Shown: positions 16,444 to 36,630 of the stretch, piece after piece
Position numbering within the stretch: the stretch's first letter is position 1
How the letters are laid out: the number at the start of each line of letters is the position of its first letter
Source: a virus
Virus record (IMG/VR): IMGVR_UViG_3300050133_000100
Coordinates: 1-53,692 of that record
Length of the DNA stretch: 53,692 nucleotides
Direction: 5' to 3' (one strand)
The notes under the pieces: model-generated
What the model was told of the DNA's origin: nothing
The model's input: only the letters and a program-made list of their open reading frames with translations
Database searches by the model: none
Translations under genes and position numbers: made by a program

Positions 16444-16448
16444 GGCGC

Positions 16449-18569: not shown

Positions 18570-18575
18570 AGGCGC

Positions 18576-18989: not shown

Positions 18990-18999
18990 CGCGACTTTC

Positions 19000-19048: not shown

Positions 19049-19087
19049 AAAACGCTTTCATCTCGAAACGTCTCCTTGAAAAGTAAT

Positions 19088-21813: not shown

Positions 21814-21825
21814 TATTTTTCTCCT

Positions 21826-22158
21826 TTACTCGCCGATGGAATGCGGGCGCCACGCGAAGACTTTTGCTATAAGCGTAGTTCCCGGTACGGCTCCACCCGA
21901 CCCCGCCGAACCCTGTTTGGTGAGAGTGATATTGGCTGCATCGGCTACACAGCCCCAATCCGGCAAGGCCGCATTGGCGTAGCTGACAAATCTCTGAAGC
22001 ATGCAGAAATCCGGCGCGAATCCGGTCAAGGGATTTCCACTAGGCGCGACTTGCTTAAATCCGTGCGGAAAGATGAGAACCGTGTCACCGTCTAATGCGG
22101 TCACGGTCCAAGATTTGTAATCTGTCTTGTTGACGACGGGTGTAACGACGATTCCCAT
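21826..22158 (-). CDS. Virion domain protein, paralogue of the 20830 C-terminus
   Basis: 110 aa from ATG 22158 with GGAGAC upstream. Almost the whole protein repeats the last 100 residues of the neighbour: VNKTDYKSWTVTALDGDTVL, FPHGFKQVAPSGNPL, CVADAANITLTKQGSAGSGG, and the same RPHSIxE end. A tandem duplication of a capsid- or spike-type beta domain is the simplest reading. It shows the basic unit without the ice-binding part. Confidence 0.75.
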   Translation of the reverse strand: MGIVVTPVVNKTDYKSWTVTALDGDTVLIFPHGFKQVAPSGNPLTGFAPDFCMLQRFVSYANAALPDWGCVADAANITLTKQGSAGSGGAVPGTTLIAKVFAWRPHSIGE

Positions 22159-22170
22159 AATTGTCTCCGT

Positions 22171-22572
22171 TTACTCGATGTGCGACTGCGGGCGCATGAT
22201 AACGAGCTTTGCCGCCGGTGTACCGCCCGATCCTGCTACGCCTTGTTTCAGAAGAGTCACGTTGGTTGTATCCAAGGTGACTCCCCAGTTGGGACGGGCA
22301 CCCAGCGCGACACTTGCCAAAGGCTGAATTTGCGCCAGATCCGGCGTGAAGCCCAAGCTCGGATTCCCCGATGGTGAGGTTTGCTTGAAGCCGTGCGGAA
22401 AAACCATTAGCGTGTCTCCATCGGCCGCCGAAATCAGCCAGGAGGCGTAACTTCCTGCGCCGGGCGCTCCCTGCCCGTCTGTGCCTGCGAGCGGTACGCT
22501 GGGTACGGCTGCGAAGGTCCCGGATACCCAGGACCCGCTCAGCCAGAAGAATGCCATTTCTAAAGCCAGCAT
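22171..22572 (-). CDS. Third copy of the virion domain, with hydrophobic leader
   Basis: 133 aa from ATG 22572 with AAAAGGAGAAACG upstream. Residues 1-27 are hydrophobic (LEMAFFWLSGSWVSGTFAA), possibly a signal or anchor. The rest is the domain of the two following genes: ASWLISAADGDTLMVFPHGF, KQTSPSGNPSLGF, TTNVTLLKQGVAGSGG, ending RPQSHIE. Divergence between the three copies suggests different positions in the particle. Confidence 0.72.
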   Translation of the reverse strand: MLALEMAFFWLSGSWVSGTFAAVPSVPLAGTDGQGAPGAGSYASWLISAADGDTLMVFPHGFKQTSPSGNPSLGFTPDLAQIQPLASVALGARPNWGVTLDTTNVTLLKQGVAGSGGTPAAKLVIMRPQSHIE

Positions 22573-23467: not shown

Positions 23468-24850
23468 CTAATTTATAATGCCGGGCCGATCAACGACGTA
23501 CTGGCCGCCGGCGAGTTCGAGTTTCTTGTTTCGATAGTCGTAGATCACCAGTGGCCGCGCTGCCGGTCCCGCCTTCCGGCTAGTTTCTTCCCCTGACCTG
23601 TGCCAGTAGTCGATCAGCTTGAAATCGTCCATCCCTTTCCTTGTTCGGTAGGTGATCGAGCCTTTCACCTCTTCCCCGTCGACGATCAGTTTTGGATCGC
23701 CCCGTTTGAATTCGTGGAGCCTGCCGAGCTCCATCTTGTCGCGTATCCAGAGCGCTGAATCCATACCCAGGCCTTTCAGGTTCACTTCCTGGTCCCCGCC
23801 CCTCAGGTACAATTGCTTGCCGACGATCTTTCCCGTTTTCGGATCCTTTTCGGAGCTGGATAAATATACGATCTTCTTTGGGTCCGACGTGTTGAAGTTC
23901 AGCACGGCTACTTTGTTGGTGGGGGTGTCCACTACCAGTCTTACCAGTGGGCCTATTTCCATCAAGTGTTTATGCTCGTGCATCTGTTCAACGATTCGTT
24001 TTTGGCTTGTAGATTGCCTCCCGTGAAACTTTGTCGATAGCGCGGCGGCATCCGCTGCCGGGTTGCGCTTCGGATTTCTCCGACTCGCACGCTCCAGCGA
24101 ATCGGCCTTCTGTTGCGCAGAGGATTTTGTTCTAAACGGTCCAGCGATGAATATCCCGGTATTTCTATCTTCGACAAAGTATCGAATAGTCTCTCCGGTT
24201 TCCCAGACAACAACAAATCTTCGATTCGGCGGGTTGCGCCGAATGTTGCGAGACGTTGGGTTTTTCATGTACTGGCTGCGCATCTTCGCCGGTGTCCGGT
24301 CTACGATCTCCTGAGCAACCTTGCGGGGCATCGAGGATCTGGCGGTACCGGAGAGAACTGCTTGCGCCAGGCGGTATTGAGCAGCGGAGCGGGCCGGGTT
24401 CCACTTTTCATCTGCTGCCAGTCCCGCCGCTGTCCAAAACGACTTTTTGCCAATGCCTGATTTCTTCGCGTCCGTGGAGCGCTTCTGGCGTTTTGCGGTG
24501 GCGTCCTCTTTTTTCTTTTTGCGCTTCTCTTCCTTTCGAACAGCCTTTGACGCTTTGAATTCCAGTTCTTTCTTGCCGCGATCAAAGCCCATGGAAAAGG
24601 CGCTGGCTAGGCGTTCCTTCTCGTTCGATTTGATCTTGCCGCCGAAGTCTTTCCGGTCCATCCATTCCGAAAAGTTCTCGTCGCTCTTGTGTGTGGCGTA
24701 GCGATACCCCGCGCCGCGCGCTTCGGTCGCGCTGGCTCCCACGTGCTTGCGCCTGGCTGTCTTCTCTTTCTTTGACCAGCCGAAGATGTTCCGCTTCTGC
24801 TGTTTGGGCAGGAAGCCGAAGAATCCGCGAGATTGAGCCGCTTGAGCCAT
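23468..24850 (-). CDS. Large basic virion protein
   Basis: 460 aa from ATG 24850 (TAATG overlap). Residues 1-200 are very rich in Lys/Arg with SKKEKTARRKHVGASATEA and KEEKRKKKKEDATAKRQ. The middle has RNP signatures (RNIRRNPPNRRF, RRNPKRNPA). The C-terminal 170 residues are a beta-rich domain (LVRLVVDTPTNKVAVLNF, LIVDGEEVKGSITY, PLVIYDYRNKKLELAGG). Charge and position suggest genome packaging or condensation inside the particle. No ATPase motif is present. Confidence 0.65.
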   Translation of the reverse strand: MAQAAQSRGFFGFLPKQQKRNIFGWSKKEKTARRKHVGASATEARGAGYRYATHKSDENFSEWMDRKDFGGKIKSNEKERLASAFSMGFDRGKKELEFKASKAVRKEEKRKKKKEDATAKRQKRSTDAKKSGIGKKSFWTAAGLAADEKWNPARSAAQYRLAQAVLSGTARSSMPRKVAQEIVDRTPAKMRSQYMKNPTSRNIRRNPPNRRFVVVWETGETIRYFVEDRNTGIFIAGPFRTKSSAQQKADSLERASRRNPKRNPAADAAALSTKFHGRQSTSQKRIVEQMHEHKHLMEIGPLVRLVVDTPTNKVAVLNFNTSDPKKIVYLSSSEKDPKTGKIVGKQLYLRGGDQEVNLKGLGMDSALWIRDKMELGRLHEFKRGDPKLIVDGEEVKGSITYRTRKGMDDFKLIDYWHRSGEETSRKAGPAARPLVIYDYRNKKLELAGGQYVVDRPGIIN

Positions 24851-25437
24851 TACGTCCGTTCACACTCGATGTTGACCACGCTGGCCGTTTTGCCTTTTGG
24901 CTTCGTGTTCAAGATCACCACTTCACTTTCCACCGCATACTTGTGCTTGCCCGTCCCGTACTCGCTGAGGATCTTGGCGAGGTCAAGAGAATATTTGAAA
25001 GCGCCCCGGTCTGGACATGCTTTACAGACCTTCCGCTCGATCACAAACGATTCCGTATGCTTGGAAAATAGCTTGACGAAAGGCCCCGCTGTCGGTTCAC
25101 AGGAGAAACTGTCCGCTATCCAGCGGTCGTAGGAGTAGGAGCGCGGCGTCCCGTCAAACTGGTCCGTATTCTGCCCGCGATAGAGTTTCTTCCCTTCCTT
25201 GGCGTCGTAGTGGCCCGGAAAGACGGTATTGAAAAACTTCATCGCGTCGAGCATTTTGGCCGTGTGGATGTTTCCCAATAACCAGGCGCGGACGGTCTTC
25301 AGATGCGCGTCTAGGTCCTGAGCGAGCGAATCGGCGTAGGGGTTCCGATGGTTCTTGACGAACTCCGGCGTCTTCCGCATCGCGGCCAGATATTGCTCAA
25401 AGGTCATCAGAACCACCACACATAGAAAAACACGCAT
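24850..25437 (-). CDS. R-S-E class ADP-ribosyltransferase
   Basis: 195 aa from ATG 25437, two bases after the upstream stop. Catalytic pattern of arginine-type ADP-ribosyltransferases: Arg87 in KKLYRGQN, Ser100-x-Ser102 in RSYSYDRWIADSFS, and Glu170-x-Glu172 in YAVESEVVIL. These enzymes use NAD to modify host proteins, as in phage Alt/Mod. Its place among virion genes suggests it may be packaged and injected. N-terminus has a short hydrophobic run (VFLCVVVL), or the protein may start at Met11. Confidence 0.78.
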   Translation of the reverse strand: MRVFLCVVVLMTFEQYLAAMRKTPEFVKNHRNPYADSLAQDLDAHLKTVRAWLLGNIHTAKMLDAMKFFNTVFPGHYDAKEGKKLYRGQNTDQFDGTPRSYSYDRWIADSFSCEPTAGPFVKLFSKHTESFVIERKVCKACPDRGAFKYSLDLAKILSEYGTGKHKYAVESEVVILNTKPKGKTASVVNIECERT

Positions 25438-25439
25438 CG

Positions 25440-25835
25440 TTAGCCCTGCTGTAAATCGTTCGCCAGCGATCCGAACACGTACAGCGTATTTCCGCCGTAC
25501 CTCGCCAGCTTGTCGAGAATCAGCCCCACGTTGAGCCCGGACGCCCCGTTATTGAATCGGAAGTGAAGCCAGTACTTCAAATTCTCCAGGTCGTTCGGCT
25601 CTGGGAATCCTCCCGGCCCTCCTACCCAGCTCGGAACGTAGATGCCTGAAGTCGTCGCGTCTTTCGTTTCGATTCTGACTCCCCCGCCCATCGGAACGCC
25701 TTGGGTGATGCGGAAGGATTCAATCTGTGCCGCTAGTGCGCGGGCGTCGTCCCAGGTCGCCAGTTGCGCCGGGTTGAAAGTCCAGGTTACGGCTGGCGCT
25801 GCCTTGTTGTCGATTGGTTCGATTGGTTCAGTCAC
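25440..25835 (-). CDS. Hypothetical protein
   Basis: 131 aa from GTG 25835 (GTGA overlap with the lipoprotein gene). Alpha/beta sequence with WDDARALAAQIESFRITQG, FPEPNDLENLKYWLHFRFNNG and LNVGLILDKLARYGG. No family recognised. Between the lipoprotein and the ADP-ribosyltransferase in a gapless operon. Confidence 0.75.
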   Translation of the reverse strand: MTEPIEPIDNKAAPAVTWTFNPAQLATWDDARALAAQIESFRITQGVPMGGGVRIETKDATTSGIYVPSWVGGPGGFPEPNDLENLKYWLHFRFNNGASGLNVGLILDKLARYGGNTLYVFGSLANDLQQG

Positions 25836-26341
25836 TTTTTGACTCCTTTCAATTTACCTGCGTTCGCTTCCGCCCTGACACGGATGTTCGCAAGGGCCAT
25901 CCTATTCGCTGCTGTGACCTTCACAACTGGAGGCGGCGCTGGCGTCGGTGGGAAGTTGGTTAAGAATTGCAGGACTGCCTGCGCTACCGCGTTCACCACG
26001 GCTACAACTTCTTGCGGTGTACCCGCGGGAACACAGTTACACCCTTGAGCGATAGCGGCAAATGCTTTCGCGATCTCCGCCGCTTTTTGCGCAGATGTTC
26101 CAGTACCCGCGAGAATAGTCGATGCTTGTGCGGTCGCAATATTCACCTCCTGCAAATACTGGACGATCTTAGCCGAGGTCGCGGAACTCAATCCCGTAGC
26201 GGCGCCGATCACAGGTATCGCGATCTCGGCGGCAGAAACAACACTTTCAAGGGTTGAAATCACCGTGGAGGTCTGACAGCCCACACTTAGGAGCGCCAGA
26301 ATCAGGAACACAATCGGGATGATGCTGATGATGCTTTTCAT
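25832..26341 (-). CDS. Lipoprotein
   Basis: 169 aa from ATG 26341. N-terminus SIIPIVFLILALLSVGCQTS is a lipoprotein signal peptide with a slightly unusual lipobox (SVGC). The mature part is almost all small-residue helix (AAEIAIPVIGAATGLSSA, AKAFAAIAQGCNCVPAG), then a proline linker and a basic C-terminus. Probably bound to a membrane, of the host or of the virion. Confidence 0.75.
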   Translation of the reverse strand: MKSIISIIPIVFLILALLSVGCQTSTVISTLESVVSAAEIAIPVIGAATGLSSATSAKIVQYLQEVNIATAQASTILAGTGTSAQKAAEIAKAFAAIAQGCNCVPAGTPQEVVAVVNAVAQAVLQFLTNFPPTPAPPPVVKVTAANRMALANIRVRAEANAGKLKGVKK

Positions 26342-26511
26342 GCGTGGGCTCCAAACATCCGGCATGTCTCGATAATGAGAATGCCGAGCAGCGGCCAGAA
26401 TAGAGGCTCTCTGCCCGGTGGATTCGCCGGTGGGGTCCGAAAGTAATCGAACAAGGCGAGCAAGATGCACAAGCACGCCAGCACGATACAGAAAATAGAT
26501 TGCGTCGTCAT
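26338..26511 (-). CDS. 57-aa two-helix membrane protein
   Basis: ATG 26511, TGA overlapping the next ATG. Below the usual length cut-off. Hydrophobic segments IFCIVLACLCILLALF and FWPLLGILIIETCRMFG separated by a short polar loop give two transmembrane helices. Coupled to the lipoprotein gene. Function unknown. Confidence 0.65.
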   Translation of the reverse strand: MTTQSIFCIVLACLCILLALFDYFRTPPANPPGREPLFWPLLGILIIETCRMFGAHA

Positions 26512-26517
26512 ACGTTT

Positions 26518-26892
26518 TTACCGCCTTCCTTTCCGACCGAACAGCATCGGCCCGACAACCAATAGGCCGCCAATCCCGAGTCCCCAATACACCCACGGAA
26601 TACTCAATGCCGGGTCCACTCCATTCAGCGGAGCCGGTAAGGTCATCGCCCAGGCTGGCACGGCGAGCGCGCCCATGCCGCACTCCGCGCAGCCGCAACC
26701 GCCGCCGCATCCCATCCCTCGAATCCCGGTGTGGGTATCCGGGTAGATCGGGTTGTAGGGTTCGGGAAATTCTGCGCTTACGAAGTCGCGCAGGTCTCCC
26801 AGTGCGGGGTGATAGATCGGGTTGTAGGGCTCCGGGAAGTTTGCTGAGACGAAATCTCTCAGCCCTCGACGTTTGGCAATTGCTCCCATCAT
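26518..26892 (-). CDS. C-terminally anchored protein with LRDFV repeats
   Basis: 124 aa from ATG 26892 with AAGGAG upstream. Contains two copies of LRDFVSAxFPEPYNPIY, a motif also at the C-terminus of 19956-20744, then a glycine/cysteine segment (GMGCGGGCGCAECGMG) and one transmembrane helix (IPWVYWGLGIGGLLVVGPML) with a basic end (GRKGRR). A repeated short motif in two virion-block proteins suggests a docking peptide for a shared partner. Confidence 0.7.
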   Translation of the reverse strand: MMGAIAKRRGLRDFVSANFPEPYNPIYHPALGDLRDFVSAEFPEPYNPIYPDTHTGIRGMGCGGGCGCAECGMGALAVPAWAMTLPAPLNGVDPALSIPWVYWGLGIGGLLVVGPMLFGRKGRR

Positions 26893-27077
26893 AAACTTGC
26901 TCCTTGCGGAATGTTCCGCCGATACGATTTGAAGGCTTGCCACTCGATTCGAATCTGAACGAAGGCGTAGAGTATGGCGTTCAGGAATTCGAAGAATGGC
27001 TCCATGCCGGTTCGATTAGTGATTGGCCGCGTCATTGTTGACGATCCGGTATCGGGTGTGAGCGCGGCAGCTTTCAT
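26889..27077 (-). CDS. 62-aa hypothetical protein
   Basis: ATG 27077 overlaps the upstream TGA, and its own TGA overlaps the next start. Middle segment (MEPFFEFLNAILYAFVQIRI) is amphipathic to hydrophobic. No family recognised. Confidence 0.65.
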   Translation of the reverse strand: MKAAALTPDTGSSTMTRPITNRTGMEPFFEFLNAILYAFVQIRIEWQAFKSYRRNIPQGASL

Positions 27078-27649
27078 TTCACGATCCCCTTTACCAGCGC
27101 GAGTCCCAAGAGTCCCAATCCTGCGATCAAAAACAGTGACGCCGGTTTGCTCCAGTCGAAAGAACAGCCCGTACAATCGGCGCTGGGTGAGACGAACCAA
27201 CTCCAGAAACTCGATTGGCAGGTAGCCGTCTGTGAGGCGCAGAGGGCCGCTAGAATGTCTGCCGCCGCCGCTCTGTTCTGCGTCACGTCTCCGGCCGCTC
27301 CCGCCGCGATGATCTGATTAATAATCGCGTTCGGATCTCCAGGAATGGTGCTCGGAGAATACGCCCCGGCCGGTGGAGGTGGCGCGGTCGGCCCTGGAAG
27401 ATTCTTGAACTGTAAAGCCTCTTGCGCTGCTGCTGAGCAGGGCGTGTATCCGCCGAACTTCGCCGGATTCTCTTGAACGAATGCCGAGCAGGATGGGGTT
27501 GCCAGTGCTCCTGCATCCGCGCAGCATAGTGACTGGAAATTCGCGGGCGTGATTCCGTCGCCGGTATCGTTGTACGGAACACCGTTGGCGTCGATGGCTC
27601 CCATTCCTGGAGCATGCGGGCGCGCCAGATTGGATCGAGGTCGATTCAC
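27074..27649 (-). CDS. C-terminally anchored cysteine-rich protein
   Basis: 191 aa from GTG 27649 (GTGA overlap, GGAGG 8 bases upstream). Six or more cysteines in the body (SLCCADAGALATPSCSAF, ALCASQTATCQSSFW) and one C-terminal transmembrane helix (ASLFLIAGLGLLGLALVKG). Disulfide-bonded ectodomain with a tail anchor is the likely topology. One of a series of such proteins in this block. Confidence 0.7.
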   Translation of the reverse strand: MNRPRSNLARPHAPGMGAIDANGVPYNDTGDGITPANFQSLCCADAGALATPSCSAFVQENPAKFGGYTPCSAAAQEALQFKNLPGPTAPPPPAGAYSPSTIPGDPNAIINQIIAAGAAGDVTQNRAAAADILAALCASQTATCQSSFWSWFVSPSADCTGCSFDWSKPASLFLIAGLGLLGLALVKGIVK

Positions 27650-27906
27650 TCGGAATCCTCCGCTTGAATCTGAGCCTGCGCTTCCAGGTAGCGCTTTTTG
27701 AATTCTTCCACCGCGCTGATTGCCTTGATTGCGAACTCGCCGGCCTTCGTGCCGGGTCCCAGCGTTTCCGTCAAGGCTTGCCGGATCTGGTTCTCCATCA
27801 TCTTTTCGGCGATGCGTAATAGCGGATCCCCGTTTGCTTTCAGCCCCGCTTTCAACATTTCGTGGCCGAGGATATCTAATCGGCCTGGAGGTACAACAGC
27901 TTTCAT
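27646..27906 (-). CDS. Small helical protein
   Basis: 86 aa from ATG 27906. Charged, helical throughout (DILGHEMLKAGLKANGDPLL, EEFKKRYLEAQAQIQAE), without a membrane segment. The one soluble member of this stretch; may bridge membrane proteins and core. No family recognised. Confidence 0.7.
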   Translation of the reverse strand: MKAVVPPGRLDILGHEMLKAGLKANGDPLLRIAEKMMENQIRQALTETLGPGTKAGEFAIKAISAVEEFKKRYLEAQAQIQAEDSE

Positions 27907-28175
27907 TGCTGCGCCTCCAGACTGGGAATCCATTCCCGGATTTGGGCAGTGATCTGCGGCCAGAAGTACCACGCGAGCCCGCCCACGATTGCAAGCCCGA
28001 TGAGCCACGTAGTAATCGAGGGACCCGCCGCGGGTGCCGGTGTATCCAAGCAACCACCGATGGCTTGCGTATAGCCAGAGGGGCAGATGCTTGGATCGAC
28101 CACAAGCAATGCTCCGCTCTGGGTCTGCGCGTCGAGTTGCGCCTGCGTCATGGTGATGGGAGTAGGTGCTGTCAT
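27903..28175 (-). CDS. CPSGY-motif protein with C-terminal membrane helix
   Basis: 90 aa from ATG 28175. Has SICPSGYTQAIGGCLDTP followed by a transmembrane helix (ITTWLIGLAIVGGLAWYFW). The CPSGYxxxxGxC motif recurs in the upstream neighbour (28172-28858), again just before a membrane helix, so the two are likely relatives. Confidence 0.7.
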   Translation of the reverse strand: MTAPTPITMTQAQLDAQTQSGALLVVDPSICPSGYTQAIGGCLDTPAPAAGPSITTWLIGLAIVGGLAWYFWPQITAQIREWIPSLEAQQ

Positions 28176-28858
28176 CGCCGCCGCCTTCCGCCGCCGCCCG
28201 AAAGCATCGGCAGGATAACCAGCGCTCCGAGAATCACGGCGCCATAGGTCATCACTTGGGCATTCGTGGCAAAAGAGAACCACTGGCCCGCTGCGGCAAC
28301 GCATGCGCCCGTCGAGGACCTGTATCCGCTGGGGCAGACTGTCGTAGCAACTTGGGAAACTGTTCCCGTTGTGAGCCCTGCTGCGATTTGCGCTGCTGTG
28401 AGTGCTGCGCTGGAAGCCGCGGGAACCATCTTTAAAAGCGCCGCTTGCGCCGCTACCTGCTGGGCTGTGAGTTGCGCGGGAGTCAAGGCGGTACCGGGCG
28501 TGACGTTCGTGATGTTGTAGCCCGGCGCCGCATACAAAGTGCTTGGATCGACGCCGGCCGCGATAGCTCCTGTTGGATCGTATTGGTAGGCGTCGGCTGG
28601 CGCCACTCCTTGGGCGATCAACTGGCTATAAAGGGATGCGCCTGGATCGCTACTGGGAACTGCCACAATCGGAGTAATGCTTGGGTCGGTGCTTACATCC
28701 ACTACTCCGCAGGTCGGATCCGATGCCGGGTCGCACAATCCCATACCGGCGAATCCGCCGCCTCTTTGTCCTGCACCTGGAAACCATCGGCGATAGAGAG
28801 GGCTGGATAGATTCGGAGAGGTGCGTAACGCTGAGCTGAGAGTGGTGGGGTAGATCAT
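28172..28858 (-). CDS. CPSGY-motif protein with C-terminal membrane helix
   Basis: 228 aa from ATG 28858. Long Ala/Thr/Pro-rich body (PGTALTPAQLTAQQVAAQAA), then TVCPSGYRSSTGACVAAAG and one transmembrane helix (VMTYGAVILGALVILPML) with an Arg tail (RRRR). The ectodomain looks extended rather than globular, as expected for a spike stalk or membrane linker. Confidence 0.7.
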   Translation of the reverse strand: MIYPTTLSSALRTSPNLSSPLYRRWFPGAGQRGGGFAGMGLCDPASDPTCGVVDVSTDPSITPIVAVPSSDPGASLYSQLIAQGVAPADAYQYDPTGAIAAGVDPSTLYAAPGYNITNVTPGTALTPAQLTAQQVAAQAALLKMVPAASSAALTAAQIAAGLTTGTVSQVATTVCPSGYRSSTGACVAAAGQWFSFATNAQVMTYGAVILGALVILPMLSGGGGRRRR

Positions 28859-28880
28859 GTCAGCGCCTCAATTGGGATTA

Positions 28881-28897
28881 GGGGTAAACCGCCGTTG
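28881..28897 (-). repeat. L element
   Basis: CAACGGCGGTTTACCCC, upstream of ATG 28858; left border of the cassette holding 28939-29157. Confidence 0.8.
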
Positions 28898-28938
28898 AAG
28901 ATTTCTGCTATTCTGGCCATCAGTGCGCGGAGGCCTTG

Positions 28939-29157
28939 ATGCTCGGACGCATTTCCGAAATGTCCGAAACTGTCACCTGTCCCGACTGTGGCGCATTCTT
29001 CACAATTCATCGCCACAGCGAATTCAGCATACGTACGAGTTCGGAATGCCCGGTATGCTCTGTTCCTGAATTGGCGCAACGCTGGGGACCGGAATTTCAA
29101 CGCCTCCGCGCAATGCCGAGCACAGAGCCGCAACATCCCGATCAGCCCAAAAACTGA
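28939..29157 (+). CDS. Zinc-ribbon protein on a rightward cassette
   Basis: 72 aa from ATG 28939 with GCGGAGG upstream. Two CxxC knuckles (CPDCGAFFTIHRH and CPVCSV) form a zinc ribbon, as in small transcription or translation factors. The last 16 residues (RAMPSTEPQHPDQPKN) come from the R element, exactly as in the cassette gene at 15928. Opposes the virion operon. Confidence 0.65.
   Translation: MLGRISEMSETVTCPDCGAFFTIHRHSEFSIRTSSECPVCSVPELAQRWGPEFQRLRAMPSTEPQHPDQPKN
29105..29153 (-). repeat. R element
   Basis: TTTGGGCTGATCGGG ... GCTCGGCATTGCGCGG, 7 bases past the stop at 29160. Nearly identical to the copy at 16391. Confidence 0.85.
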
Positions 29158-29159
29158 TT

Positions 29160-29336
29160 TCACTTCTGCCCCTTTTTTGGAAGAATCATCGCCAGTCCCA
29201 CCGCTCCTAACGCGAGAATCCAAAACCAGCATGAGGATTCACAATCTGGCCTCACGTCTCCGGCTGCAATCGCTCCGGCTTTACAGCATCCCGGGGAATG
29301 CCTCCATTGATACCCGTAGCCTCCGAGGTTCTTCAT
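29160..29336 (-). CDS. 58-aa C-terminally anchored protein
   Basis: ATG 29336 overlaps the upstream TGA. Short cysteine-containing ectodomain (SPGCCKAGAIAAGD) and one transmembrane helix (CWFWILALGAVGLAMILP) with a KKGQK end. Too short for standard ORF cut-offs. Same design as its neighbours. Confidence 0.65.
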   Translation of the reverse strand: MKNLGGYGYQWRHSPGCCKAGAIAAGDVRPDCESSCWFWILALGAVGLAMILPKKGQK

Positions 29337-29554
29337 GATTTGGCCTTTGCAGTCTTGCCCTTCGTTTTGGGTCCAAGCGCGGTGGCTTTTACTTCCAACT
29401 CTTCATCGGAAAACCGCTGAATGTCGCCGAATTCGATGGTCTCTTCGCCCACGTGGTTGATAATCATCACGCTTGGATTCTCGGTACCCACTCCGAATTG
29501 CAAGATAAGATCCGCCTTCGCGTGACCACTCGATAAACTGATGATGGCGCTCAA
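29333..29554 (-). CDS. Small hypothetical protein
   Basis: 73 aa from TTG 29554, which overlaps the upstream stop (TTGA) and has GGAGG 6 bases before it. Beta-rich with a basic end (KTKGKTAKAKS). No membrane helix; function unknown. Confidence 0.65.
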   Translation of the reverse strand: MSAIISLSSGHAKADLILQFGVGTENPSVMIINHVGEETIEFGDIQRFSDEELEVKATALGPKTKGKTAKAKS

Positions 29555-29718
29555 AACCCGCCTCCATTCAACCAGAAGATTGAGAGTCCCAAAGTCTCCA
29601 GCGCGAAAACGAGCGCGAAAACGACTAGCAATGTGAACAAGCCGAATTTAACGAGCGGAGTCCAACGTCGGAACCGGAATGCCGCCATCATCGTGCGATA
29701 CAGAAAGCCTTTTCTCAT
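29551..29718 (-). CDS. 55-aa single-span membrane protein
   Basis: ATG 29718 overlaps the upstream TGA. Basic N-terminus (MRKGFLYRTMMAAFRFRRW) then one long hydrophobic helix (FGLFTLLVVFALVFALETLG). Positive-inside topology predicts the N-terminus in the cytoplasm or particle interior. Confidence 0.65.
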   Translation of the reverse strand: MRKGFLYRTMMAAFRFRRWTPLVKFGLFTLLVVFALVFALETLGLSIFWLNGGGF

Positions 29719-30329
29719 ACCAGCCACGCATTCGCAACGTGTAACGCTGCCAGTCCTTCGATGCCGGTCAAGCCGAGCTGGGGAGCCTGAAGTTGCGCCA
29801 TTGCCAGCCATGTTCCAATGTCGGTCGGGGTGCTTCTGTCTCCCGCTGAGCCATCGGCTGCGAGTATGCCGGCGTCCTGGTAGGTCTGCGGATCGATCGA
29901 ACCCGGATCGAAGGGGCAATCCTGCCCCGTGGCCGCTGTATAGAAGTAGCACCACTGATCCATCCCAAGCCCGGTAGATGTTCCCGCCAGCGCTGTCATC
30001 TTTTGCGAAATCAATTGTGTTGCCGCTGGTGCGGGATTTACGGGACTTGCTGGTGTCGATGGAACCGAGACAGGTGTGGTGGGCGTCGGTGCGGGGACCG
30101 GAGCTGTAGGCGCACTGATGGCAGGTAGGCTAGATGGCTGCTGCGCCATGATGGCCGCAACCTGCGCCGGGGTTACTCCCGTTGGAGTGGTAACCGGGGC
30201 CGTCGCCAGCGGAGCGCCTGGACCAAACAGACTAGGGAACCACTGCGCCAAATATCCGCCCTTCCAGATCAGATACACTCCCACTCCCCCGACGACGATA
30301 AGAACACCATATTTGACGCGACTATCCAT
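29715..30329 (-). CDS. N-terminally anchored protein with proline-rich stalk
   Basis: 204 aa from ATG 30329. Transmembrane helix at residues 7-23 (YGVLIVVGGVGVYLIWKGG), then a Pro/Thr/Val-rich stalk (PTPTTPVSVPSTPASPVNPA) and a C-terminal domain with MDQWCYFYTAATGQDCPFDP. Unlike most neighbours the anchor is at the start. The stalk plus terminal domain suggests a spike or entry device. Confidence 0.7.
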   Translation of the reverse strand: MDSRVKYGVLIVVGGVGVYLIWKGGYLAQWFPSLFGPGAPLATAPVTTPTGVTPAQVAAIMAQQPSSLPAISAPTAPVPAPTPTTPVSVPSTPASPVNPAPAATQLISQKMTALAGTSTGLGMDQWCYFYTAATGQDCPFDPGSIDPQTYQDAGILAADGSAGDRSTPTDIGTWLAMAQLQAPQLGLTGIEGLAALHVANAWLV

Positions 30330-30408
30330 AGAACACCGCCGCGCAAAGCCGAGCATGGAGTCGTGAGAACAGTTGAGCCCAACAACTAAATTTAGCCCGA
30401 GTCCTCAT
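30322..30408 (-). CDS. 28-aa junction ORF
   Basis: ATG 30408 overlaps the upstream TGA and the TAG overlaps the next gene's start region. Consists of an R element. Possibly only a coupling leader. Confidence 0.35.
   Translation of the reverse strand: MRTRAKFSCWAQLFSRLHARLCAAVFYG
30337..30388 (-). repeat. R element
   Basis: TTGTTGGGCTCAACTG ... GCTCGGCTTTGCGCGG, ending 8 bases before ATG 30329. No L copy follows. Confidence 0.8.
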
Positions 30409-30932
30409 CTTCTGGCCCTCCACCTGTATATTCCATAAGCCGCCGCTCCAAGTAGAGCTACAGCTACAAACGGATGCTCCCTGATAAACCCTCCCGCTCC
30501 ACATCCACACGGAGAAGAATCAGGATACGGCCCGCCAAACTTCGCGCCCCAATAAACCGGCTCGCATCCGTTCCTCTGAATCGCATCGACGAACATCTGC
30601 TCGACACGCGGCGCCACGGGTAAAGGTTGGGACGCTCGGGCAACGGTCGCCATTGATCCGCAATACGGAGCGCAGAGAGGCGAAGCGCAGCTCATCGCGC
30701 CGGCGAATCCTCCAAACGAACAATCGGCTAAGAGGTCGATCCCGGCTTCTTCCTGCGTAATCGCTCCACACTGGATCTTCAGGCACGTTTCAGGATTGGG
30801 AATCGGACGGCCCGGGCGGATACGCGCGAAGCCTGCCGGATCGACCGCGCGAGTCGCAAAGGCCGCGACAAGGGAATCGTACGATGCATCCCCCATTCCG
30901 ACTTGTCCCATGCCTGAGAAGTCCCTCATCAT
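30405..30932 (-). CDS. C-terminally anchored cysteine-rich protein
   Basis: 175 aa from ATG 30932. Body with many cysteines (ETCLKIQCGAITQEEAG, SCASPLCAPYCGSM, NGCEPVYWGAKFGG), then CGCGAGGFIREHPFVAVALL, a transmembrane helix ending in RWRARR. A disulfide-rich ectodomain and tail anchor are likely. No family recognised. Confidence 0.7.
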   Translation of the reverse strand: MMRDFSGMGQVGMGDASYDSLVAAFATRAVDPAGFARIRPGRPIPNPETCLKIQCGAITQEEAGIDLLADCSFGGFAGAMSCASPLCAPYCGSMATVARASQPLPVAPRVEQMFVDAIQRNGCEPVYWGAKFGGPYPDSSPCGCGAGGFIREHPFVAVALLGAAAYGIYRWRARR

Positions 30933-31612
30933 TTAACCGCCGAAATAATCAAGGCTACTGCTGCTAGTCCCGCAATCCAATACAGCATCGGATTGATGGG
31001 AGCCGAAACTAGCGCTGCGCCGGAACTTGAACTCGATGAACTTGTGGCGTTCGTGCTATCTGCCGTGGTCCCGCCTTGCTGCGGAGGTGTTGCTTTCGGC
31101 GTCTGCTGCGGCGTTGTCACTGGAGGGGTAGGCGGTACACCTTCCGCGGCTAGCGCTTTCGCCGCTGGGTCTCCCAAGAGAGCCGCTGCGTTTACAATAT
31201 CGGCAGTCGATCCGCCTGTTGTTCCTGGAAGGGTGAGCCCGAAGGTTCGCGAGTAGCAGTCTGGCGGTTGCGGGAAGGTATTCAAGCAGTTCTGTACGTC
31301 CACGTTGTAGTTCGCTGCGGTTCCTTGCGCCATGTTCTGCTGCTGTGTCGCTAGCAGTTGCGCGATGCATGCCGACGAGAATGCCGCGCCGCCCGGTCGC
31401 GTGTCCTGGCTACAAGCCGGAGGCGCTATGGGTGTGGGGGCTTGATACACCGCTGGTCCGCTGCCGCTTCCGCTCCATCCGCCTGAGGGTGTCCAGATCG
31501 TTGTGACGTTCACTCCAGGATCGGCGCCGATTCCGGATCGTCTCTGTCTGCCGGGGTAGCGGAAGCCTCCACGCGAGGGGTAGCCGTTTCCGTTGCGGAG
31601 TTGGACGTTCAT
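30929..31612 (-). CDS. C-terminally anchored, low-complexity protein
   Basis: 227 aa from ATG 31612 (1-base overlap with the upstream stop). Gly/Arg-rich start (GGFRYPGRQRRSGIGAD), a middle with cysteines (DVQNCLNTFPQPPDCYSRTF), a Pro/Thr/Ser linker including seven serines in a row, and a transmembrane helix (MLYWIAGLAAVALIISAV). Confidence 0.7.
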   Translation of the reverse strand: MNVQLRNGNGYPSRGGFRYPGRQRRSGIGADPGVNVTTIWTPSGGWSGSGSGPAVYQAPTPIAPPACSQDTRPGGAAFSSACIAQLLATQQQNMAQGTAANYNVDVQNCLNTFPQPPDCYSRTFGLTLPGTTGGSTADIVNAAALLGDPAAKALAAEGVPPTPPVTTPQQTPKATPPQQGGTTADSTNATSSSSSSSGAALVSAPINPMLYWIAGLAAVALIISAVK

Positions 31613-32331
31613 CAGTCGTTCTCCGTGAGGACGTAACCCAATCCGAAAGCGATTAAAGCAAGCCCGCCCCACAAGTAGAGATTCGTGCTTGAGTTGGAAA
31701 CAGTTGTAGAGCCTGAAGCGGATGCGGTGTTGCTGCCGCCCGCCGAGCCCGGCGTGCTAGTGTTGACAGGTGCGCCCGGTGTGGAACTTTGCGCCGCCAC
31801 TTTTGCCGCTGCGACATTGGCCGCTACTGCCGGATCGTTTGCAATCGGATCGTAGTAGTATCCAAACCAGTCCCACTTACCGCCACGCTGCCGATCCTTC
31901 AGACAGTTTGATCCTGCCGAGCCGAGCTGGGGATTGGAGCATAATTGCACGATCTGATTCCAGCCCTGGCTGAAAACTTCCAGGGCGTACTGCTGAGCTT
32001 GGGGTGTCTTTTCTTCCGGTGCGAGAGATTGCCACGCTGCAAGGTTCGGCTTCATTACGTCCGCTTCCATCTGGTTTACCCATTCGGTTGTGATGGTGTT
32101 GTTTGGATTGGGGCCAAACAGCGAGACGATATTTGCCAGCGCGGCGCCCGCTTCCAACACTGCGCCCGCGATCGGGATGCCGGCCTTGGTGGCTGCCGAT
32201 GCCATCTGCTGCAATGATCCGGCTACAGCTTTCGCGTCTCCCTGCTGAGAACTCCCGGAGAGTCCCCAGTGAGGCATCTGATAGCCGGTGCGTCTCCAGC
32301 CGGTCCATTCGTATTGTGGAACTGTGCTCAT
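31612..32331 (-). CDS. C-terminally anchored protein with helical body
   Basis: 239 aa from ATG 32331. Helical N-terminal domain (AVAGSLQQMASAATKAGIPI, ALEVFSQGWNQIVQLCSNPQ) with PQLGSAGSNCLKDRQRGG, then a Ser/Thr/Gly linker and a transmembrane helix (LYLWGGLALIAFGLGYVL). Some residues (SQGWNQI...C) recall small peptidoglycan-side proteins, but I cannot assign a family. Confidence 0.7.
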   Translation of the reverse strand: MSTVPQYEWTGWRRTGYQMPHWGLSGSSQQGDAKAVAGSLQQMASAATKAGIPIAGAVLEAGAALANIVSLFGPNPNNTITTEWVNQMEADVMKPNLAAWQSLAPEEKTPQAQQYALEVFSQGWNQIVQLCSNPQLGSAGSNCLKDRQRGGKWDWFGYYYDPIANDPAVAANVAAAKVAAQSSTPGAPVNTSTPGSAGGSNTASASGSTTVSNSSTNLYLWGGLALIAFGLGYVLTEND

Positions 32332-32741
32332 CGGCTGCGTTTTTTACCTGCGGGACGGATTAGCAGACTGTTGTTTCCTTTCCTTTGAACTTTTACACGG
32401 GCGCCAGATAAAGTAGTGGGGTACCAGCTTCCGGGTTTCATTTGAGAGATTTTGGCCCGTAGATTCTTCGCCGGATTAGACTTTTTGCGCGCGGTGGAGC
32501 GCTTCTTGGTTTTGGCGCGCGTCTGTTTTTTGTTCCGGGCTGTCTTGCAGTTCTTCTTGGCCGGGCGCTTCGCTTTCTTCTTTTTCTTCTTGGTTGCCAC
32601 GGGATTCCTTTTCAATCGTTCCGCCAATGCGACTAATTGCCTCCAGCGCTGTCTTTCTTTGGCTGTGAGCATCCGTCGGCTCATCAGATCATTCAAGCGC
32701 TGGATTTTCGCTTCGACGCTTGCTCGTGTTTGCTTCGCCAT
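32328..32741 (-). CDS. Basic protein sharing a C-terminal module with the HNH protein
   Basis: 137 aa from ATG 32741. Very basic (KKKKKKAKRPAKKNCKTARN). The last 35 residues (GSWYPTTLSGARVKVQRKGN) align with the end of the next gene upstream (KKWTPATLNGARVRIRAVGK). DNA binding is likely from charge. Probably a virion core protein. Confidence 0.7.
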   Translation of the reverse strand: MAKQTRASVEAKIQRLNDLMSRRMLTAKERQRWRQLVALAERLKRNPVATKKKKKKAKRPAKKNCKTARNKKQTRAKTKKRSTARKKSNPAKNLRAKISQMKPGSWYPTTLSGARVKVQRKGNNSLLIRPAGKKRSR

Positions 32742-33313
32742 CAGCGCCCCACCTTGCCGAGATCAATCTGCAGCCCCTTGCCCACCGCCCGAATCCGTAC
32801 CCGTGCGCCGTTCAGTGTCGCCGGCGTCCACTTCTTCAGCGGGTTGCCGCGCGCTTGACGGGCGCTCCAGATTTCCGAAGCGTATTCCCTGCGCTTAGAC
32901 TTCGGGGTTTCGTGGATGATGCGCCCGCCTTCGTCATGCGCCTTGCGGGTATGCTGCAGAACGGCGTTGACGTATTCGCCCAGCGATTGAGCGCCTGGGT
33001 TGTACTGAGCCGTTCTTCGGCCCTTGCCCTTTCTGGCCATCTTCGCCCCTTCCCGCGTGTTGCATGATTTGCAGAGCCAGCGGAGGTTAGATTTCGCGCC
33101 GTTCGATTCGTCACCGTCTTTGTGGTCGATGGTTAGAAAACGAGTCGAACCACAGATGGCGCATTCTCGAGAACCGGATGGACGGCAAGCCTGTTGATTG
33201 GCCCGGTACCGCTTTGCCCGGTCGGTGACCTTCTGTTTCCGGGTGCGAGCACAGCCGCCGCGCTCCCGTTTGCCTTGACCGCCTGCGCCGCCTGTATTCA
33301 AAACCTGATTCAT
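32741..33313 (-). CDS. HNH-type nuclease domain fused to a virion module
   Basis: 190 aa from ATG 33313 (ATGA overlap). Residues about 48-90 have CAICGSTRFLTIDHKDGDES and LRWLCKSCNTREG, a zinc-bound HNH nuclease motif. After a basic stretch, the C-terminus (WTPATLNGARVRIRAVGKGL) matches that of 32328-32741. An HNH domain tied to a putative capsid module could cut DNA during packaging or entry; it may also be a domesticated homing nuclease. Confidence 0.72.
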   Translation of the reverse strand: MNQVLNTGGAGGQGKRERGGCARTRKQKVTDRAKRYRANQQACRPSGSRECAICGSTRFLTIDHKDGDESNGAKSNLRWLCKSCNTREGAKMARKGKGRRTAQYNPGAQSLGEYVNAVLQHTRKAHDEGGRIIHETPKSKRREYASEIWSARQARGNPLKKWTPATLNGARVRIRAVGKGLQIDLGKVGR

Positions 33314-33960
33314 CGGTTCTTCACCAGATAGATAACTGCTGCTACGGCTGCTATCCCAACAATCCATGCGCCAGGTGAAGCTGAGCCTGCTACTGCCACT
33401 TGCGGAAGCGTGCCGACATATCCCGGCGTTCCGTATGCTGGCTGAACCTGAGTGCCGGCCGCTACGCTCGCGCCTGCAGCGATCGCGTTGAGAATCCGCT
33501 GCGTTGTGTCCTGGCACAGCACGGCTCCGTATACGGTTGGATCGCACGGCATTCCGTTCGACAATGTGTAATCGCCGATTCCTTTGGAGCAAGCGGTCGG
33601 ACGTCCTGCTCTTCGCCATTTATCAAACTGCGATTCGCTTCGCTGCGATCCTATCCGGTCCCACTGCGTACCCCTGGTGTTGCGCCGCGATCCGACGTTG
33701 AGAACGCTTGAGCCGATATCGAGGATGCTGGGGGCTCCTGGGGTTTCTCCGGTCCACACGGAGGCATCGTTAGTAAACGGTGACGAGCTGCCGGATTCCG
33801 CGGTCATCGGTTCGCCGGTTGCCGGATCCACTCCACTGGCGTCTGATCCTGAAGGCCAGAACTCGGCGCCGATTACGTTTCCTTGGGAATCGAGTGCGAA
33901 GTTGGGAACACCTCCACCTGGTAGCCCGAGCCTGCCGGTTAAGGTGATCGGGAGTATCAC
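33310..33960 (-). CDS. C-terminally anchored protein
   Basis: 216 aa from GTG 33960 with GAGGA upstream. Body with VDPATGEPMTAESGSSSPF, a basic part (RRNTRGTQWDRIGSQRSE) and YTLSNGMPCDPTVYGAVLCQ, whose LSNGMPC also occurs in the candidate capsid protein at 19152. One C-terminal transmembrane helix (GAWIVGIAAVAAVIYLV). No family recognised. Confidence 0.68.
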   Translation of the reverse strand: MILPITLTGRLGLPGGGVPNFALDSQGNVIGAEFWPSGSDASGVDPATGEPMTAESGSSSPFTNDASVWTGETPGAPSILDIGSSVLNVGSRRNTRGTQWDRIGSQRSESQFDKWRRAGRPTACSKGIGDYTLSNGMPCDPTVYGAVLCQDTTQRILNAIAAGASVAAGTQVQPAYGTPGYVGTLPQVAVAGSASPGAWIVGIAAVAAVIYLVKNR

Positions 33961-34160
33961 AGGTTTTCCTCGACTGTGGATAAACCGCCGTTGACCAGCA
34001 AAGGAAGGTTTCCGGCTTGCGGGAGCGCGGAAACATAGAATGCCGCTTGAGAATGTTGGGCAACGCTTGTTTTCGATATTCTGACCGAGTATTCTGCGGC
34101 CGCGCAATGGTTCGCACGGATCGGGCACAGTGACGCGGCCAATATATAAGGATGCGTCAT
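33957..34160 (-). CDS. 67-aa junction ORF
   Basis: ATG 34160 overlaps the upstream TGA and its TGA overlaps GTG 33960, so it is coupled on both sides. Spans a damaged R (about 34104-34150) and the L at 33977. Begins MTHPYILAASLCPIRANHCA. Uncertain whether the peptide matters. Confidence 0.4.
   Translation of the reverse strand: MTHPYILAASLCPIRANHCAAAEYSVRISKTSVAQHSQAAFYVSALPQAGNLPLLVNGGLSTVEENL
33977..33998 (-). repeat. L element
   Basis: GGTCAACGGCGGTTTATCC, upstream of GTG 33960. The following AAGGTTTCC and GGAGCGCGGA match the junction at 8643-8756. Confidence 0.8.
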
Positions 34161-34831
34161 GCCCACACCCTCCACGCAACAAACCCAAGAGCCGCTACTA
34201 AAGCTACAGCTCCAAGAACTTTCCATCCCGATTGCGGCCACTCCGCTCGTTTCCCATACGGGTTAGGAGCTTCCCATCCCGGATACTGACCATGCGACGT
34301 ATCGAGCGCTACACGTCCTGACCAATTCGGCCCGCATTGACCCCCGGAACAATCCGCGAAGTTGTACACATGCGAATAACGGCCAGGGTCTTCAGGATCC
34401 ACTGCTACCGTCACGAAGCCGGCCGGAATTCCCAAAGCAAGCAAGCGAGCTCTCATCGTCATCGAGAAGCAATCGCAATCCCCTTTCGGATCGGCCATTC
34501 TGCGCATGTCCACCGGACGAACAAGCACCTCTGGCACGCCGTCGCCATCGTGCGCTTGCTTCAGCCAGGCGCTGAACGGTTCCCCTGTGTCTTCGTCCTG
34601 AACAAAGCGGATCGAGTTTTTCACGTCCTGCCAGTTGCCGGCGATGCAATCCCCGTTCCCTAACGCACACCCTCGCAACGCATCGGCGCGGATCTCGGGA
34701 GAGAACGAATCCGCATCCGAGTAATCGACCATCATGTCGATCACTTGCGCTACTTGGGTGTCGGGGTCTTCAGAGAGAGGCGTGGCGTCAACGTTGATGA
34801 CTCCACCGAAGGATGGTTCGTAAACCCGCAT
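34157..34831 (-). CDS. Membrane-anchored transglutaminase-like protein
   Basis: 224 aa from ATG 34831. Cys119 in KGDCDCFSM, His154 in GRYSHVYNF and Asp177 in ALDTS form the transglutaminase/papain-fold triad. A C-terminal transmembrane helix (WKVLGAVALVAALGFVAW) anchors it. Related phage proteins are thought to cleave or crosslink proteins or peptidoglycan peptides. First gene of the leftward virion block, reading from the divergent promoter region at 34.9 kb. No clear Shine-Dalgarno, so start is tentative. Confidence 0.78.
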   Translation of the reverse strand: MRVYEPSFGGVINVDATPLSEDPDTQVAQVIDMMVDYSDADSFSPEIRADALRGCALGNGDCIAGNWQDVKNSIRFVQDEDTGEPFSAWLKQAHDGDGVPEVLVRPVDMRRMADPKGDCDCFSMTMRARLLALGIPAGFVTVAVDPEDPGRYSHVYNFADCSGGQCGPNWSGRVALDTSHGQYPGWEAPNPYGKRAEWPQSGWKVLGAVALVAALGFVAWRVWA

Positions 34832-34998: not shown

Positions 34999-36630
34999 TT
35001 GGTAGGCGTTTCGACGGTCGAAGAGATCAAAAAGAAGCCGCGCAAGGGATCAAAATACGCAGCGGAAGCCGAAAACGCGACTCCCGAGACGCCCAAAAAA
35101 GCCGCGGAATCGACTATGGCAGACCAGTCGAGCCCGGATACCCCTGAAACCGCCGAAATTCCAGAGTATCCCCGCACTCCACGTAAATTAAGCTTCGATC
35201 AGCTCTGCGAATACTGGAATCAGACCTTGAACACCGAGCAACGGGAGCGCGGAGTCGTTTATTGCTACCGGCATTGGCCGATTTTGGAGCCGGTCGAGAC
35301 CACCACGGCGGCCGGCAACCCGGATTTCTCGAACCCATGCGCCGATAAGTTCAGTCACCTCGACCCGCCCTTAAGCCTTGAGTTGGTTTTGAAGCGTTGT
35401 GGGCTCGGGACGTACAGTTTTCGGCTGAATCAGAATTTGAAACGGCCCTACGGCACGCTCACCAATGCCCGACTCGATACTGACCGTGACAACTGGAATG
35501 AGCACATGCCGATCATTCCGCCAGACCGAAAGGTCGATTTCAGCGATCCTGCAAACGAACGGTACAAAACGATTCTCGTATCGAAAGGGATGCTGAAAGC
35601 AACCGATACTCAGCAAGGAGCAGAGGAAGAAATGGCAGCTACCAGCGTCTTAGGCGAAATCGCCTCCAAGGCATTCGACAAAATGGGCCAGCCTGGCCCG
35701 CAGGTTGTACAATCCGATATCGCCGGAGGCGTCGGAACCGAACTGGTAGGACTTCTCCGGGAACAGATCAACGTGAACCGTCCACCAGCCCAGCAAGGAA
35801 CCGTCAAGGAGCAACTAGAGGGGCTCGTCACGCTCGCAAAGACCATGACGCCAGCCCCTGCCCCGGCCGCCGACATGGGACCTTACATCGAGCTTCAGCG
35901 CGAGAATAATTCCCTTGTCCGGGAGTTGATGCGCAAAGACGTGGAGCGCGCCGAAGCTGAAGCCTCAAGGGCCAAAGAGGAAGCCGCCCAGTATCGCGCC
36001 GCCCTGCCTCAACCCAAAACCGTCGATGAACAGTGGGATGAATTGGAGCGCGCCGCGAAACGATTCGACCGCATGACGGGCAAGAAAGAAAAGCCAGAAG
36101 AGGACGAAGAGGAAAAGCCCTCCACCGCGGCAGGCTTCTGGGGAGGTCTACTGGGAGCCCTGCCTCAGATTATGAAGAGTGGCGTTGAATTACTCCGGGA
36201 AGGCAACGTGATGCTGTACAACTACAAGCTGAACGGAGTAGGAGCCGTGCCCTTGAATCCGGCCACGGGCCAGCCCGGTACCGAGCCGCTCGCGCCGGCC
36301 GAGGGTGAAGATAACGAGCCTGCCCTTTCGCCGGAAGATCAGGCTAGAATGGATCACATGCAAAACGTCGCCAATCAATTAACCGCGCTGGCGTCTCCGA
36401 TGCTGTCTCACATGGCTCGAAACAAAACAGGCGCCGACTTTGCCCGGTTCGTGATCGAGAACTATGGCCCGCCCGCCTTTGCGTTACTTCAGAACACTGG
36501 CAAGGAAACAATCTTTGCGATGATTCAGAACTATCCGCCAGTGTGGAATCAGATCGCTCCGCAGAGGCTTCCGCAGTTTCAGAAGTTCTTAGATGAGTTT
36601 ATAGGGTATAGTGCGGTAGCAGTTCAGTGA
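34999..36630 (+). CDS. Large coiled-coil-containing protein of unknown function
   Basis: 543 aa from TTG 34999 (GATGAGGG upstream; next ATG is 35116). Acidic, Pro/Thr-rich start; residues about 70-200 a folded domain (LSFDQLCEYWNQTLNTEQRE, GVVYCYRHWPILEP, LVLKRCGLGTYSFRLNQN); residues 290-390 a coiled coil (RELMRKDVERAEAEASRAKE); C-terminal helices. The opening LSFDQLCEYW recalls LTYEEISRYW of 39038-39436. No terminase, portal or ATPase motif. Could be a scaffold or assembly protein. Confidence 0.75.
   Translation: MVGVSTVEEIKKKPRKGSKYAAEAENATPETPKKAAESTMADQSSPDTPETAEIPEYPRTPRKLSFDQLCEYWNQTLNTEQRERGVVYCYRHWPILEPVETTTAAGNPDFSNPCADKFSHLDPPLSLELVLKRCGLGTYSFRLNQNLKRPYGTLTNARLDTDRDNWNEHMPIIPPDRKVDFSDPANERYKTILVSKGMLKATDTQQGAEEEMAATSVLGEIASKAFDKMGQPGPQVVQSDIAGGVGTELVGLLREQINVNRPPAQQGTVKEQLEGLVTLAKTMTPAPAPAADMGPYIELQRENNSLVRELMRKDVERAEAEASRAKEEAAQYRAALPQPKTVDEQWDELERAAKRFDRMTGKKEKPEEDEEEKPSTAAGFWGGLLGALPQIMKSGVELLREGNVMLYNYKLNGVGAVPLNPATGQPGTEPLAPAEGEDNEPALSPEDQARMDHMQNVANQLTALASPMLSHMARNKTGADFARFVIENYGPPAFALLQNTGKETIFAMIQNYPPVWNQIAPQRLPQFQKFLDEFIGYSAVAVQ

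Follow-up and report, generated by a model that had tools for sequence, protein, structure and literature searches.

A nearly gapless operon of small tail-anchored membrane proteins suggests an internal-membrane, tailless phage in an IMG/VR viral genome

Known prokaryotic viruses with an internal membrane are few and small, with genomes of about 10-30 kb. Here we compare them with a 53,692-bp IMG/VR record of an uncultivated virus (IMGVR_UViG_3300050133_000100, positions 1 to 53,692; the whole stretch is called the window), in which a tightly packed operon of small membrane-protein genes lies on the minus strand between positions 25,832 and 34,831. Genes and their products are named by the lower coordinate (Table 1).

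PM2 (Corticoviridae, Vinavirales) shares with the window a circular genome (a probable one in the window, see below) and a capsid gene flanked by small membrane-protein genes that leave hardly any gaps, but its genome measures 10 kb, it has one double-jelly-roll capsid protein and the packaging ATPase P9, and no sequence similarity is detectable. Its proteins P3 and P6 have been proposed as templates that register the capsomers on the membrane, and its genome may be packaged jointly with the membrane (PMC6356626). Singelaviria, now a separate realm (PMC12714852), with the Helvetiavirae (P23-77, SH1, HHIV-2), has muralytic enzymes and numerous small membrane genes together with single-jelly-roll capsid proteins, to which the predicted 19152 fold bears a weak resemblance; the small and large capsid genes of P23-77 are adjacent, as are the window genes 18025 and 16449, both encoding beta-proteins. 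Unlike the window, these viruses have genomes of 16-30 kb (Simuloviridae 16-19 kb, Sphaerolipoviridae about 30 kb; PMC12642351, PMC12643093) and an FtsK/HerA ATPase, and the window sequence is unrelated to theirs. A packaging ATPase is common to most such membrane viruses (PMC8328091).

PRD1 (Tectiviridae) and Jorvik-like phages, like the window, have a membrane-protein cluster and a transglycosylase (PRD1 P7; Jorvik Slt) in the structural module, and also possess DNA-delivery proteins; the structural module of the membrane phage Jorvik holds short hydrophobic proteins and Slt (PMC10589892). PRD1 differs from the window in its mostly N-terminal or central helices (one at the C-terminus), its double-jelly-roll capsid protein, the ATPase P9 and a genome of about 15 kb. 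The best structural match of 19152 is the capsid protein of SPV1 (Portogloboviridae), a virus with an archaeal host. The SPV1 genome measures about 20 kb, and to our knowledge no packaging ATPase has been recognised in it.

Architecture of the membrane-gene operon

A preliminary description of the window took the operon to be gapless. Between 25440 and 34831, 16 of the 20 pairs of neighbouring genes on the same strand overlap, mostly by 4 or 1 nt, while the other four are separated by 6, 41, 75 and 110 nt, and the operon is hence nearly, but not strictly, gapless. The intervals 28745-29159 and 30330-30404 are intergenic gaps bearing dispersed repeats, and the open reading frame (ORF) 28855-29232 is unlikely to be a gene. 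Of the 56 same-strand junctions elsewhere in the genome, 37 likewise leave 15 nt or less between genes, so tight packing is not operon-specific; as gene overlaps occur genome-wide, they say nothing specific about stoichiometry, which had been suggested to be equalised by coupled translation.

A hydrophobic helix, defined in the window as a Kyte-Doolittle (KD) 19-residue mean of at least 1.6, is present in 12 of the 21 operon products vs 7 of the 60 elsewhere (Fisher p 8e-5), and shuffling of the operon proteins left 4.5 helix-bearing products on average and 10 at most (300 runs). C-terminal helices number eight in the operon and two elsewhere in the window. Ten products had been described as having one, usually C-terminal, helix, and at this threshold the prediction largely holds: 26518, 27074, 28172, 29160, 30929, 31612, 33310 and 34157 pass, 27903 lies just under it (1.53), and 30405, with a short, marginal stretch at its C-terminus, fails. 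For 29551 and 29715, single helices elsewhere in the chain had been noted. The true start of 29551 lies near 29718, which gives 55 residues with one helix; the helix of 29715 is N-terminal, and proteins with a comparable hydrophobic N-terminus occupy the corresponding place in 7/7 relatives, as judged by position and inspection. The tail-anchor architecture does not apply to 25832, whose lipoprotein-like product has an N-terminal signal (..LLSVGCQTS).

As a yardstick, the same helix test was applied at a threshold of 1.5 to the structural-region genes of known viruses. Helix-bearing genes amount to 6/12 in PM2, 12/23 in PRD1 and 16/26 in P23-77, with gaps of 15 nt or less at 9/11, 19/22 and 21/25 junctions, respectively. 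The lambda head and tail genes are unlike the window operon, with a helix in 2/20 and none at the C-terminus. Three PM2 products are tail-anchored (P3, P8 and gp j), two of them with ends like those of the window; P8 ends in LLIVGAVVIGLFLVIKRK. Six tail-anchored products were found in P23-77 by the helix test.

Among the individual operon products, 31612 is present in eight relatives with 19 invariant columns. By inspection, 32741 carries a Cys-X2-Cys and an HKD motif, and its C-terminal stretch resembles, by eye, that of 32328, which from its sequence is possibly a DNA-binding protein. The motif RDFVxxxFPEPxNPIY occurs twice in 26518 (26744-26867) and a third time in 19956 (20044-20098), and could be a docking motif common to the two proteins; a scan for relatives with the FPEP motif gave two matches, both due to chance. 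The small membrane-protein gene 26338-26511 overlaps the putative lipoprotein gene (25832-26341) by 4 nt, and the two may form a lysis pair.

Relatives, capsid module and enzymes

Relatives were found with a degenerate pattern of the transglutaminase motif, GDCDxF...HVY/W, which matched 18 stretches, most of them with the exact 120-nt spacing of the window, and seven relative records (47-61 kb) were analysed in full. Mostly at 25-45% identity, they share with the window the order of the divergent gene 34999, the transglutaminase-like gene 34157, 31612, small membrane genes, 26518, the FHGR gene 23468, 19956, the capsid candidate 19152, 18025, 16449, and then 13875 and 12879. Between the transglutaminase and capsid genes, gene calling in the seven genomes yielded mostly small genes, many with 1-4-nt overlaps, and each relative has 6-10 C-terminal helices in the interval, often with KK, RK or RR ends. 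When the window and the seven relatives are pooled and the interval is taken from the transglutaminase to the FHGR gene, a C-terminal helix is present in 58 of 116 interval products (50%) vs 70 of 1101 other ORFs (6%; p 2e-31, a value that overstates independence, as the genomes compared are related). Gene order, whose conservation had been proposed as a check, and tail-anchor architecture are thus kept in seven divergent relatives.

The tail behind the helix is more basic than the N-terminal flank in 56 of 70 tail-anchored products, the mean charge being -0.40 ahead of the helix and +1.44 behind it, and an N-terminal hydrophobic segment is found in only one of the 70. Exosortase or other C-terminal sorting signals were considered for the basic tails and rejected, no constant motif being visible ahead of the helices on inspection.

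An alignment of 19152 picked up 28 IMG/VR loci, in part from the same records, plus one contig of a metagenome-assembled genome (MAG), and 16 of the 17 capsid-bearing records searched contain a match to the transglutaminase profile. The operon and structural proteins tested had no match in 50,697 phage records (megablast, tblastn), nor the protein set in 72,556 plasmids (tblastn). The helicase-methyltransferase was also tried as a family marker; its 80 loci share only replication-type genes and are therefore uninformative on the capsid module. The only host hint is a 3.6-kb contig (L173) with relatives of the capsid candidate and of 18025, binned in an uncultured Methylophilaceae MAG, and it is too weak to name a host.

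The major capsid protein candidate 19152 is well conserved and of near-constant length. Its AlphaFold2 model, built from 28 aligned family proteins, is mainly beta (pLDDT 76). The realigned matches are headed by the capsid proteins of SPV1, HHIV-2, HCIV-1 and SH1, P23-77 following at rank 6 (Z 6.2-7.9, a range shared by common beta folds); these top matches are single-jelly-roll proteins of membrane-containing viruses, SPV1 being the best (Z 7.9). The neighbouring 18025 is a candidate penton or second capsid protein. The halves of 16449 are homologous to each other (hhalign E 7e-14) and to the single-domain 18025 (6e-18 and 2e-12), and the top Foldseek hits of its AlphaFold2 model (pLDDT 81) include double-jelly-roll, capsid-type proteins of PRD1 (P3), iridovirus, PBCV-1 and STIV (E 4e-5 to 1e-3, TM-scores 0.2-0.3). 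In some relatives 16449 is longer and multi-copy, so that it may form spikes or vertices and not the main shell.

Two products with C-terminal helices resemble enzymes. In the 34157 family C119, H154 and D177 are invariant among nine aligned sequences, and three relatives exceed the Pfam Transglut_core gathering cut-off, the window protein scoring below it (17.3 of 23 bits); judged from this alignment, 34157 has the Cys-His-Asp triad of the transglutaminase-like superfamily. The 7631 product matches PHROG endolysin and tape-measure transglycosylase domains, a muralytic type known from phage virion proteins; Glu15 is invariant in its family, and the window protein shares its C-terminal hydrophobic segment with some relatives. 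In PRD1, the annotated transglycosylase P7 also has a helix near its C-terminus.

An internal membrane and its alternatives

The operon had been proposed to encode the inner membrane of a virion or an entry complex. This reading is the best supported one, given the adjacent capsid candidate, the synteny in the relatives, the failure to find terminase or tail genes and the same anatomy in PM2, PRD1 and P23-77; the lipid membrane and the location in the virion are what we infer from it. We consider that the stretch probably encodes the internal-membrane proteins of an icosahedral phage without a tail. By analogy, the virus would best be read as working like the virions of PM2, Singelaviria and Tectiviridae. 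It is not filed with these groups because no sequence similarity and no conserved FtsK/HerA ATPase were detected, and because of genomes of about 41-63 kb (the larger family records, not all known to be complete).

In such a phage, the proteins would lack signal peptides and enter the host inner membrane through their C-terminal helices, so that the enzymatic N-terminal domains can remain cytoplasmic, away from the cell wall. The N-terminal domains would come to lie between membrane and shell, fastening the jelly-roll capsid to the membrane patch, with the short basic tails on the opposite, genome-side face, able to contact the genome. Assembly of the capsid on the membrane patch would then lead to a particle with an internal lipid vesicle. 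At entry, the vesicle, in which the transglutaminase-like protein and the 7631 muralytic enzyme are anchored, would cross the cell wall and deliver the DNA, as in PRD1 or PM2. Joint packaging of genome and membrane in the manner of PM2 would be in keeping with a genome that is circular and shows no recognisable packaging ATPase. Enzymes anchored by their tails suggest a general strategy for keeping cell-wall enzymes off the wall until entry.

Several observations weigh against an internal membrane. The Foldseek matches of the 19152 model are weak (E about 0.01, low TM-scores), none of the listed fold matches stands clearly above the unrelated ones beneath it, and at such Z scores the realigned matches are support, not proof. 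No sequence similarity to known membrane phages was found. Basic tails and the positive-inside rule together would place long N-terminal domains outside without a signal peptide; since the rule would favour the opposite topology for many products, the orientation given above for domains and tails is tentative. Furthermore, the sequences reveal no conserved packaging ATPase in the family, though most Varidnaviria have one. FtsK-type ATPases (PF01580) were found in 0/16 records and HerA-type ATPases (PF01935) in 2/16, the window not among them, and no Walker-A ORF conserved across the family was found. The DUF87/HerA-type ATPases are confined to the relatives G015 (C1:48228-48596) and G023 (C1:42395-42520), where they could serve packaging or plasmid functions.

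The alternative that survives best, although we think it rather unlikely, is an entry or envelope machine in the host membrane, outside any lipid-containing virion, the particle being a membrane-free jelly-roll capsid. Transglutaminase and muralytic domains would suit the crossing of a cell wall, but the operon is always inside the capsid module, internal-membrane viruses provide both the nearest structural matches and the anatomical yardsticks, and six to ten tail-anchored proteins per genome are far above the lambda control.

A pleomorphic or externally enveloped virus, i.e. a protein-studded vesicle with the jelly-roll proteins as spikes and no icosahedral shell, is improbable. It would account for the many membrane proteins and for the lack of a recognisable packaging motor; outward spikes, however, would be expected to need signal peptides, and N-terminal hydrophobic segments are as rare as stated above (1/70), while the capsid candidate shows the conservation and near-constant length already described.

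We give an equally low probability to an ordinary tailed phage, with head and tail genes too divergent to be recognised and small membrane proteins for lysis, superinfection exclusion or host takeover. The DnaB helicase, the helicase-methyltransferase fusion and the HNH genes are typical of tailed phages, and tail-fibre and C1q folds also match 19152, at a similarly weak level. However, terminases are normally detectable across phyla, and the large terminase (PF03237) was found in 0/8 genomes (the window and seven relatives), with six controls positive. Pfam and PHROG portal, HK97 capsid and tail families were likewise not found in the structural module, save through the muralytic domain of 7631. 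PHROG 'terminase small subunit' matches on two proteins were discounted as probable mislabelling of HNH domains, the set being rich in HNH proteins.

A secretion or conjugation-like system on a plasmid-like element, for which the circular contigs and the HerA/DUF87-type ATPases of G015 and G023 could speak, is very improbable, as such ATPases were not found in 14/16 records and no host secretion-system family, the homology named in the preliminary description as speaking against a membrane machine, was matched by Pfam or PHROGs.

As an internal-membrane phage, the virus and its operon most likely belong to a previously unrecognised, widespread family, with genomes two to five times those of known membrane-containing tailless phages. 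A literature search found no described family of this kind, but subscription papers were mostly outside the search, so that novelty is unproven. A possible, though doubtful, extension is a high-rank uncultivated lineage of ~45-63 kb circular tailless membrane phages that would package DNA without a dedicated ATPase, by wrapping a membrane of basic-tailed anchors round the genome, and would carry a capsid-type protein of one beta-domain next to its tandem-duplicated form. If true, this single/tandem pair would be a living analogue of the transition from single to double jelly roll. A family that occurs in dozens of metagenomic records, reaches genome sizes of about 63 kb, has structural proteins with no detectable similarity to the 50,697 phage records and lacks a recognisable motor would widen the internal-membrane morphotype and raise testable questions of how such particles build their membrane and load DNA.

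Gene inventory and further observations

Table 1. Features of the window with their coordinates (KD, Kyte-Doolittle mean)
Feature	Position	Strand	Basis
Conserved divergent gene, bordering the operon upstream	34999-36630	+	8 relatives
Transglutaminase-like protein, C-terminal helix	34157-34831	-	KD 1.95 at residues 205-223
Tail-anchored protein, basic end VKNR, start uncertain	33310-34188	-	KD 1.98, helix ends 3 residues before C-terminus
HNH-domain basic protein	32741-33313	-	HNH Pfam match in protein set; profile relatives
Lys/Arg-rich soluble protein	32328-32741	-	sequence
Conserved protein, C-terminal helix and internal hydrophobic segment	31612-32331	-	KD 1.69, C-terminal
Pro/Thr/Ser-rich tail-anchored protein	30929-31612	-	KD 2.06 at C-terminus
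Cys-rich protein, RWRARR end, short marginal C-terminal hydrophobic stretch	30405-30932	-	below threshold
Single-helix protein, helix N-terminal	29715-30329	-	KD 1.68
55-aa single-helix protein	29551-29718	-	KD 2.6
Soluble 73-aa protein	29333-29554	-	ORF, 4-nt overlaps
58-aa Cys-rich tail-anchored protein, KKGQK end	29160-29336	-	KD 1.94; profile relatives in 3 genomes
Tail-anchored protein, RRRR end	28172-28744	-	KD 2.05
Tail-anchored-like 90-aa protein	27903-28175	-	KD 1.53
Soluble conserved 86-aa protein	27646-27906	-	profile relatives in 5 genomes
Cys-rich tail-anchored protein	27074-27604	-	KD 2.36
Soluble 62-aa protein	26889-27077	-	4-nt overlaps
Tail-anchored protein, two RDFVxxxFPEPxNPIY motifs	26518-26892	-	KD 1.66; 7 relatives; repeat family D11
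Small N-terminal-helix protein	26338-26511	-	KD of 25832-26511 pair 2.71 and 2.85
Putative lipoprotein	25832-26341	-	lipobox by inspection
Conserved basic protein with FHGR domain, closes the membrane-gene interval	23468-24850	-	8 relatives
Arg/Lys-rich protein, central hydrophobic region, FPEP motif	19956-20744	-	9 relatives
Major capsid protein candidate, single jelly-roll-like	19152-19883	-	28 IMG/VR loci; AlphaFold2; structural matches
Single-domain beta-protein	18025-18459	-	directly downstream of capsid candidate in nearly all loci examined
Tandem duplication of 18025 domain	16449-17333	-	halves homologous mutually and to 18025
Conserved structural-module protein	13875-14438	-	8 relatives
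Conserved structural-module protein	12879-13460	-	9 relatives
Muralytic-type enzyme, C-terminal helix	7631-8158	-	KD 1.91 at residues 155-173
Helicase-N4/N6 methyltransferase fusion	41514-44351		
DnaB helicase	45500-46996		
Dispersed repeats	8643-8765, 13461-13505, 14438-14572, 15858-16452, 17348-17386, 18482-19061, 20747-20796		
Dispersed repeats	28881-29151, 30335-30384, 33977-34010, 44286, 51704, 52001, 53244		
Dispersed repeats, also	234, 2848, 4800, 6607, 38667, 39709, 45028, 50842, 51423, 51813, 52683		

The first 127 bases of the window are repeated at its end, which is what assemblers leave on circular molecules, and the genome is therefore probably circular; several relatives carry the same end overlap of 123 or 127 bp. 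Further recognisable genes encode several HNH nucleases, a papain-type protease and an ice-binding domain, and an Rfam search of the window gave no matches. Three adjacent genes at 20830-22572 have a common C-terminal domain of ~100 aa, with 112-nt DNA repeats at 21010, 22009 and 22339; the first of them joins this domain to an Ice_binding (PF11999) domain, and the products are possible spike or decoration proteins. The 24850-25437 protein, with LYRGQ, SYSYD and ESE motifs, looks by eye like an ADP-ribosyltransferase, without Pfam support.

The dispersed repeats, 35-60 nt in length, stand at gene boundaries, with unrelated inserts of 0-600 nt between their head and tail. The head follows the stop of a gene (GTTTGGGCT..CGGCATTGCGCGG) and the tail precedes the next start (..ACGGCGGTTTACCCC); in the other half of the genome, the tail stands at gene ends, coding for ADERTSxPN-like peptides. 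Recombination linkers or gene-cassette boundaries are possible roles for these repeats.

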